Shown: positions 3,264 through 8,944 of the stretch, piece after piece | How the letters are laid out: each line of letters begins with the position of its first letter | Numbering within the stretch: position 1 is the stretch's first letter | From: Spongiibacteraceae bacterium | GTDB lineage: Bacteria; Pseudomonadota; Gammaproteobacteria; Pseudomonadales; Spongiibacteraceae | Assembly (NCBI GenBank): GCA_002710725.1 | Contig: PAKT01000088.1 | Span: 1 to 39,937 of the forward strand | Length of the DNA stretch: 39,937 nucleotides | Direction: 5' to 3' | Translations under genes and position numbers: made by a program | Notes under the pieces: generated by a model | The model's database searches: none | Told to the model about the DNA's origin: nothing | What the model saw: only the letters and a program-made list of their open reading frames with translations

Positions 3264-4253
3264 TCAGTAGACCGGCAACCAGGACGCGCAGTTGCCGGGC
3301 TCGCTGACTGCCGTCGCTGCAGACAGTTCCTTTTCGCTGTTTTCCAGGCGGCTATCGAAAGGCGCCAGTGTGCGGGCCCGTTTTATTGCCTGCTGGGCCG
3401 TAAGCTGACACCCTGCCTCTGCCAGCGCAAAGGCAAAATTATTCCAGGCCAGTGCATTTCCCGGCTGCAATTGCAGGCTGCGTTGAAAATACGCCAGTGC
3501 ACCGTCGCGTTTTTTGTCCTGTAAATAATTGGCCATCATAAACTGGGCTGTGGCCGAGCGCGGCCAGTGCTCAGTGGCCTCTGACAGGGCATTTTCATAC
3601 TGCCGGTCTGACAGCGTGGCGGTCTCGCGCATTTTCTCGAGTTCTGACAGATACGTCAGCGCGCTTGCCGCTGCCGGATACTCTCCCAGCGGTACCGGCA
3701 CCAGCCCCCAGTAATCGCTGCGGTGCCAGGTTTTCATAAAGGTGCGGGCAGGTATCGCATAGTAAGCCTGCTTGCCGGAATGCAGCAGCAGGGTTGCCCC
3801 CGCATTTTCATAGCCAACCACAAGCGCGTAGTGCCATTGCGGCCACCAGTTGAAGGACAGATTCTGCAAAACCAGCACCGGGTTGCCTGCGTCCAGCTCG
3901 GCAACCACCGCGTCCAAGGTGGGCAGCGCTGGATAAGGCAATAAACCCTGACGGCGAACAGCGGCTGTCATTTCCAGCGTCAACGAACCTTCCCGCCCGG
4001 GCAGGTAAACCTGCCGAACCAGCTCATCGATAGCAACGTCCTGACCACGAAACTGCAACGCAGACGTGAGCGCCGCCGGACCGCAATGGGCCACCTCCTG
4101 TTCCACAAAGGGCACATCGAGCCTGACACTGTCACGCTCGGGTGGCGTGCTGGGCTTGACCGTTGCACAGGCGGATAAGACCAGCGCCATAGACACAACC
4201 AGCAGACGAAAAAAAACTCGCCTCAAAGAGGCGAGTTTATGAAGCAGAGCCAT
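3264..4253 (-). CDS. PA2778-like C39-type cysteine peptidase lipoprotein with TPR-like C-terminus
   Basis: Lipobox LVLSACA; C39-like motif VPFVEQEVAHCGPAALTSAL; TPR-like C-terminus; start taken at MALLHKLASL rather than the longer ORF start. Confidence 0.82.
   Translation of the reverse strand: MALLHKLASLRRVFFRLLVVSMALVLSACATVKPSTPPERDSVRLDVPFVEQEVAHCGPAALTSALQFRGQDVAIDELVRQVYLPGREGSLTLEMTAAVRRQGLLPYPALPTLDAVVAELDAGNPVLVLQNLSFNWWPQWHYALVVGYENAGATLLLHSGKQAYYAIPARTFMKTWHRSDYWGLVPVPLGEYPAAASALTYLSELEKMRETATLSDRQYENALSEATEHWPRSATAQFMMANYLQDKKRDGALAYFQRSLQLQPGNALAWNNFAFALAEAGCQLTAQQAIKRARTLAPFDSRLENSEKELSAATAVSEPGNCASWLPVY
4209..4238 (-). terminator. Strong rho-independent terminator-like hairpin inside the start of the C39-like peptidase CDS
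   Basis: Minus strand: AAACTCGCCTC-TTT-GAGGCGAGTTT followed by more T (8 T in total); perfect 11-bp stem, 3-nt loop. Confidence 0.75.
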
Positions 4254-4269
4254 AATCAACTCAGGCGGA

Positions 4270-4668
4270 TCAGTTAACCGGACGGATAAAGGGGAAGATA
4301 TCCGTCGCGCCAATCACATCGGTAATGACAAACACAATAAAGATCGTCAGAACCACACCGACCAGACCGGCACCGGCGGGCGCATCCTGCAGGTTGGCAT
4401 TCAGCTGCGCTAGCTCAGCGGCGGTCATCGCATTGATGCGTGCATCAACGTCAGTTGGCGAAACGCCCATATCCACCAGCTGCTGCTTCACATCGTCGCG
4501 ATCAAGAAAGGCTTTGACCGATTGCTTGTTCTCAAACTGGTGCTGCTCAACCAACATGTCAGAGGACGAAATAACCCCTGCGTTGGCGGATGACAGCAGC
4601 AGACCGCTCCACATGACCAAGGCTGACAGAATCAGGGACAGGGTCTTTCCGGTTTTTGTGCGATGCAT
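4270..4668 (-). CDS. PA2779-like small secreted/membrane protein
   Basis: Signal peptide, central helical region, C-terminal TM segment (GLVGVVLTIFIVFVITDVIGATDIFPFIRP); adjacent to C39-like peptidase. Confidence 0.75.
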   Translation of the reverse strand: MHRTKTGKTLSLILSALVMWSGLLLSSANAGVISSSDMLVEQHQFENKQSVKAFLDRDDVKQQLVDMGVSPTDVDARINAMTAAELAQLNANLQDAPAGAGLVGVVLTIFIVFVITDVIGATDIFPFIRPVN

Positions 4669-4755
4669 AAACTATCTCCAGTTGTTAGCTAAAAACTCAG
4701 CTCGATAGAAGCGCATTCTACTCCTGTTACCAAGGCGAGTTTAGCGCTTGTAAAT

Positions 4756-4767
4756 ATTCACGTGAAT
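4756..4767. promoter_or_regulatory. 12-bp perfect palindrome ATTCACGTGAAT between cobS and the PA2779-like gene
   Basis: Direct reading; lies about 88 bp upstream of the PA2779-like start codon. Confidence 0.3.
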
Positions 4768-7951: not shown

Positions 7952-8944
7952 TTACAGGGCTTTCGGGTCGAAACCGTCGGCGTAGAACTGGCTGTACCAT
8001 TTGCGGAATTTCGCAATCGGGCCATCACCGTCACAGAGGATCGGCAGCGGACGGTAGATCTTGTGCTCCCAGATAGGCGCGTCTTCTTCCAGCTGGCCGA
8101 CAATGTCTTTCACAATCGCCGCGTTCACGCCGCCTTTCTTCACTTCGCCATTGATTTTCGGTTGAGTGAAAGCAAAGCGGATCTGCACGGTTTCGTTGTC
8201 GATCGGTGTGGTCAAGCCCATCAGGCAGGTTTCAGCAATGCCCTTGAAGCGGGTATAGCCCTGACCGGGACCAAAACTGGCGGTGTGGATTTCACCCTTC
8301 ACTTCACCGCGCGGCGTCGGCATATTGGCCTTCTGAAGACCGCGTGACTTGGGGCCATCGTAGGTGGTTTCCCACTCGGGGAATGAAGCCGTGCCGTGAA
8401 CATAACGAAAGTGCGCCGGATCGGCGGCATTTTCAGCCATTTCCTGAGGATGGGTGTTCAGCGTCCAATCGTAACGGTCCTGAGGTGACCACTCGTCGCT
8501 GTTCATCTCTTCGTGGGTTTCAACTTCCCACAGTGGATCAACCCGCTCCGGGTGATACCAGGCCCAGATCACCTGATTGGTTTCACGGGTGGGGAAGGCG
8601 TACAGGCACTGTTTGCCCGCCACTTTCGGCGGCATGTTCTTGGCGTAAGGTACGTCGGTACACTCGCCTTTTTCATTGAACTTCCAGGCGTGGAAGGGGC
8701 AAACAATGGATTCGCCCTCAATACGGCCACCCTTGCCTTCATTTTCATGAATGCCGTAACCCAGGTGAGCACCCAGGTGCGGGCAGTAAGCTTCCAGCAG
8801 CACGGGCGTTCCGCTCTCGGTGCGAAACAGCACCAGATCCTGGTTGAAATAACGCACGGCACGGGACTCGCCCGCCGCCAGCTCATCGGCATAGGAAACG
8901 GCGTACCAGCCAAAAGGCATGGGCATGGGATAACGCTGTGACAT
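7952..8944 (-). CDS. Rieske 2Fe-2S aromatic-ring-hydroxylating/ketosteroid-type oxygenase
   Basis: Rieske motif CPHLGAHLGYG...CPFHAWKF and mononuclear iron site region ENAADPAHFRYVHG. Confidence 0.9.
   Translation of the reverse strand: MSQRYPMPMPFGWYAVSYADELAAGESRAVRYFNQDLVLFRTESGTPVLLEAYCPHLGAHLGYGIHENEGKGGRIEGESIVCPFHAWKFNEKGECTDVPYAKNMPPKVAGKQCLYAFPTRETNQVIWAWYHPERVDPLWEVETHEEMNSDEWSPQDRYDWTLNTHPQEMAENAADPAHFRYVHGTASFPEWETTYDGPKSRGLQKANMPTPRGEVKGEIHTASFGPGQGYTRFKGIAETCLMGLTTPIDNETVQIRFAFTQPKINGEVKKGGVNAAIVKDIVGQLEEDAPIWEHKIYRPLPILCDGDGPIAKFRKWYSQFYADGFDPKAL

Follow-up and report, generated by a model that had tools for sequence, protein, structure and literature searches.

A predicted intrinsic terminator within the signal-peptide codons of a PA2778-family peptidase gene is conserved as a structure across many PA2779-PA2778 gene pairs

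A PA2779-PA2778 gene pair carries a strong predicted terminator hairpin inside its second gene, where the same bases encode the signal peptide of a lipoprotein peptidase. We observe this arrangement in a 39,937-nt stretch of Spongiibacteraceae DNA, referred to below as the window, and find the hairpin kept across many families by compensatory changes in its stem. Our preferred explanation, to which we assign a probability of about 0.68, is that PA2779 transcripts receive their 3' end from this hairpin in the downstream gene, so that the peptidase would be made solely by readthrough and the PA2779:peptidase ratio would be fixed at a high value. Polymerase that has passed PA2779 would encounter the hairpin about 31 nt past the stop codon, barely out of reach of the terminating ribosome, and would mostly terminate there. 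The minority reading through would yield a bicistronic message as the source of peptidase translation, leaving the small PA2779 protein in constant large excess over its partner peptidase. Selection would retain the stem while its bases also code the positively charged n-region (K/R, A and G) and those of the U-tract the start of the hydrophobic segment (F, V, I and L). The ratio model draws on general knowledge of attenuators. The features concerned are collected in Table 1.

Table 1. Features of the PA2779-PA2778 locus in the window.
Feature	Position	Strand	Basis or remark
PA2778-family C39 cysteine peptidase lipoprotein, 329 aa	3264..4253	(-)	NF033920, 278 bits; PF13529
Predicted lipobox cysteine codon (LSAC)	4167..4169	(-)	sequence
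U-tract, eight consecutive T	4209..4216	(-)	first three T double as last stem bases
Predicted terminator stem-loop AAACTCGCCTC-TTT-GAGGCGAGTTT	4214..4238	(-)	11-bp stem, 3-nt loop; sequence, pattern scan, fold, score
Peptidase ATG start	4251..4253	(-)	weak GAG Shine-Dalgarno 6 nt upstream
PA2779-family protein (DUF6627), 132 aa, stop TGA 4272-4270	4270..4668	(-)	NF033919, 136 bits; PF20332
PA2779 leader motif GTGAATATTTACAA, possible promoter or regulator site	4748..4761	(-)	identical across the genus's three genomes (window, L002, L003)

The identity of the pair is established by the curated models NF033919 and NF033920, both of which score above cut-off, and the peptidase begins with a textbook lipoprotein signal (MALLHKLASLRRVFFRLLVVSMALVLSAC). 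Read directly on the minus strand, the stem begins 31 nt past the PA2779 stop and 15 nt past the first base of the peptidase start codon (A at 4253), the distance from that stop to the peptidase ATG being 16 nt. In the peptidase frame the stem reads K-L-A-S-L-R-R-V-F-F, and the U-tract codes part of V-F-F, where the hydrophobic segment begins. The initial annotation had placed an 11-bp stem with a 3-nt loop and eight T just after the peptidase ATG and just past the PA2779 stop, with the same bases encoding the signal-peptide n-region, and each of these statements is borne out by the direct reading. It had also allowed that the peptidase might truly start 3' of the hairpin, which we reject as not credible. 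The GTG and ATG past the hairpin sit merely 8-10 codons before the lipobox cysteine, too near for a lipoprotein signal peptide, and the sole alternative start is a TTG within the hairpin loop that lacks a Shine-Dalgarno sequence.

The hairpin has the stable GC-rich stem and short loop of an intrinsic terminator, with a predicted stability of about -16 kcal/mol and eight consecutive T directly 3' of the stem. It ranks first among 27 terminator-like sites found by pattern scan in 12 kb, its RNA fold has a z-score of -3.3, and none of 200 shuffles equals it. On our own implementation of a d'Aubenton-Carafa-type scale it scores 55, the top value in the 40-kb window; on the same scale the trp and his attenuators, taken as yardsticks, score 42.5 and 37. 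The window's second-best intrinsic terminator (7927-7903, minus strand, score 43) lies 3' of an ORF ending at 7952 and looks like an ordinary intergenic one. An origin of the hairpin from a repeat or an uptake sequence was rejected, as the stem motif has one copy in the 2.9-Mb genome and stems vary between families. A search of the window against Rfam returned no match to a known RNA family.

No sigma-70-like or promoter-like site was found between the two gene starts in the window. The PA2779 leader motif listed in Table 1 was not found in the loci beyond the genus's three genomes. The same leader holds a 10-mer, AAACTCGCCT (4742-4733, minus strand), equal to the left arm of the terminator (4238-4229, minus strand); long-range pairing through it was rejected, since it is not kept in either L002 or L003, and the match is probably due to chance.

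The initial annotation had proposed to look for the hairpin in orthologous PA2779-PA2778 loci. Searches at the family, order and class level yielded 164 usable loci, in all but one of which PA2779 lies directly upstream of PA2778, and 160 junctions were scored. Of the 160 junctions, 36 have a predicted terminator scoring above 30 in or next to the signal-peptide codons, against 0.4 expected from synonymous codon shuffling with each gene's own codon usage; 44, against 1.4, score above 20, and 109 hold a hairpin of -14 kcal/mol or better where 26.8 would be expected. The shuffles, like the E-values, ignore kinship, the orthologs being phylogenetically non-independent and including a few near-duplicates (L015 and L139 share a junction). 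Among the 62 families represented, a score above 30 is found in 22 and a hairpin of this strength in 44. The arrangement is often present even in family f238, outside the class and in the same phylum, as in GCAAATGCCCGCCTACTGGCGGGCATTTGCC, which reads ANARLLAGIC. Matched control regions behave differently: scores above 30 occur in 0/159 PA2779 5' ends, in 0/160 regions inside PA2778 (sampled twice) and in 0/160 PA2779 3' halves, and none of these four sets of about 160 holds a score above 20. Among 454 other ORF starts, taken from the window and from 26 segments of three related genomes, three exceed 20 and one exceeds 30. Where the score exceeds 20, between 15 and 49 nt (mostly 26-38) separate the end of the stem from the lipobox cysteine codon that follows, which places the stem within the coding sequence, where it must be translated. 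The distance of these terminators from the PA2779 stop is at least 7 nt, roughly the boundary of a terminating ribosome.

These data bear on two further readings. Signal peptides and terminators alike favour U-rich runs, and the hairpin might accordingly be chance or a by-product of signal-peptide codon use, or else truly intergenic with a misplaced start. We give this next to no credence: the first form is excluded by the synonymous shuffles, the matched controls and the covariation described below, and the second founders on a lipobox too near the hairpin for a later start. The hairpin could also be a translational element that slows ribosomes or restricts peptidase initiation, for example aiding secretion, as its position within signal-peptide codons in nearly all loci having one might suggest. 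Hairpins of -14 kcal/mol or better are, however, seldom found where the same genomes encode the PA2779 signal peptide (12/159) or at other lipoprotein-like starts (1/19), and the U-tract would be superfluous to such a role, which makes this reading quite improbable.

The pairing of the stem is maintained although its sequence varies from family to family. PA2778 signal peptides frequently contain the motif xARx(1-4)[ALS]G[VI], which results from translating a stem such as AACGCCCGC-TTT-GCGGGCGTT, and an alignment of 19 distinct sequences from about 15 families was selected by this peptide motif only. In it 84.8% of the cells are paired against 69.4% in shuffles (none of 500 as high), and 30 cells are double-changed against 12.8, with double changes in seven of the nine pairs; slid alignments reach 44% paired cells at most. 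Many of the compensatory changes are synonymous. Among the covarying codons, Asn AAC goes with Val GTT and AAT with Ile ATT, and Ala GCC, Thr ACC or Pro CCC is matched by Gly GGC, GGT or GGG. Such covariation shows signs, at the level of sequence, of selection on an RNA (or single-strand) structure added to the protein constraint.

The same tendency is visible among close relatives. Litorivivens (L002), whose peptidase is 72% identical, has AAGCTCGCCTC-TTT-GGGGCGAGCTT inside a T run; over the 33 nt of hairpin and T-tract its identity to the window is 91%, as compared with 33-36% in the codons on either side, and the hairpins differ in two pairs, one A-U having become G-C by a double change and another A-U having become G-U. 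In UBA5047 (L003; peptidase 56% identical) an unrelated stem, GACTTGCCACGCCACGGTGTGGCAGGTC, followed by T8 occupies the same location, and an upstream TTG start, with a GGAG Shine-Dalgarno sequence 7 nt ahead of it, puts this hairpin, too, within the gene. In the family's other genus, g2, the stem lies in the lipobox codons and three of its pairs show double changes, two of them being paired in all sequences.

Could the conserved element be something other than a terminator? A convincing U-tract is present in about a quarter of the junctions (44/160, score above 20), and at junctions without a good one hairpins are still enriched (46 where 13.6 are expected, and 20 where 5.9 are), so that intrinsic termination may not account for all of the conserved role. 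Strong hairpins without a U-tract occupy the corresponding codons in f23 (probably Pseudomonas; L051/L052) and in g2 (within L033-L040), the names for these taxa being guesses. Such loci would fit a hairpin that blocks 3' exonucleases or guides cleavage, so that the PA2779 message outlives that of the peptidase and termination is secondary or Rho-dependent. We regard this as unlikely to be the main role, given the good U-tract that follows the stem in the window and in 22 families, far above the synonymous expectation. The readthrough-limiting device suggested by the initial annotation is upheld in part: a strong predicted terminator does lie in the coding sequence and is conserved, but the many orthologs that have the hairpin without the U-tract imply that the word 'terminator' does not fully describe the element across the family. 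The common denominator across junctions is a 3'-end hairpin, and some lineages may use RNA stability or Rho; where a U-tract follows the stem, as in the window, intrinsic termination would be the straightforward reading.

A different possibility concerns the role of the ribosome. In a translation-coupled attenuator, a ribosome starting at the peptidase ATG, or reinitiating there after finishing PA2779, would cover or melt the hairpin, and peptidase output would track translation. The distance from start to stem mostly falls between about 13 and 38 nt, with 16-20 nt the commonest value, which is near the limit of the RNA covered by an initiating ribosome (the start codons of distant orthologs are inferred), and in most loci the PA2779 stop and the peptidase start are close or overlapping. 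Translation through a terminator is known to relieve it in S. gallolyticus pil1 (PMC3894217). This spacing may, however, simply reflect signal-peptide geometry. The U-tract lies merely about 45 nt past the ATG, so that polymerase leaves scant time for a ribosome to load there, although one coming from PA2779 could still be in place, and a 101-nt fold of the window revealed no strong competing antiterminator stem of the trp type. We consider translational coupling possible but doubtful, and continue to favour a fixed ratio set by readthrough. Still more tentatively, and against the odds in our judgement, PA2778-type signal peptides may in part be a translated ancestral terminator hairpin (xARxxAGVF) acting as a ribosome-sensitive attenuator, in which translation of the protein's own signal peptide decides its transcription.

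How does this arrangement compare with known systems? Partial terminators between rplL and rpoB and between rpsU and dnaG give unequal expression within one operon; these are intergenic, whereas the PA2778 hairpin overlaps codons and constrains the protein sequence. The attenuators of E. coli frd-ampC and B. pseudomallei nlpD1-penA are terminators of an upstream gene past which the downstream gene is reached by readthrough, as we propose for PA2778, but the penA hairpin lies in an untranslated leader, 25-73 nt before the ATG (PMC6045580), and that of PA2778 in the downstream coding sequence of many families. The likeness to pil1 is that translation across a terminator hairpin could relieve termination; there a repeat-bearing leader peptide precedes the operon (PMC3894217), while here the peptide would be the regulated protein's own signal peptide, which has no repeats. 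RNA 3' ends inside coding regions have also been mapped in E. coli by Term-seq, where no conserved family-wide hairpin at the gene start of a pair was found described (PMC7815308). Terminators embedded in signal-peptide codons or in a downstream coding sequence were not found described in the open-access literature.

Literature on the PA2779-PA2778 pair itself is almost nil, and no described function was found. A PA2779-family gene of P. stutzeri has been picked from RNA-seq data as a strong-promoter candidate, its promoter being identical to a gentamicin-resistance promoter (PMC10155442). This choice implies a high level of transcription of the upstream gene in that species, which agrees with the idea of a strongly transcribed first gene followed by an attenuated one. 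In 137 of 163 PA2779 proteins the C-terminal hydrophobic segment is preceded by PAG. It is speculation that PAG is the cleavage target of the partner C39-like peptidase; if it were, a surplus of substrate over enzyme would make sense.

The principle at work would be the familiar one of operon attenuation; the novelty would be a terminator inside the signal-peptide codons of the downstream gene. The same bases carry both an RNA signal and a signal for protein targeting, maintained by compensatory, often synonymous changes across many families, which suggests, as far as sequence comparison can, a general and undescribed way of making much of a first protein and little of a second. Annotation pipelines expecting terminators to be intergenic would miss or discard those located at the start of a gene. 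The arrangement predicts that PA2779 is far more abundant than the peptidase, which would offer a clue to an enzyme-substrate or partner relation between the two proteins.
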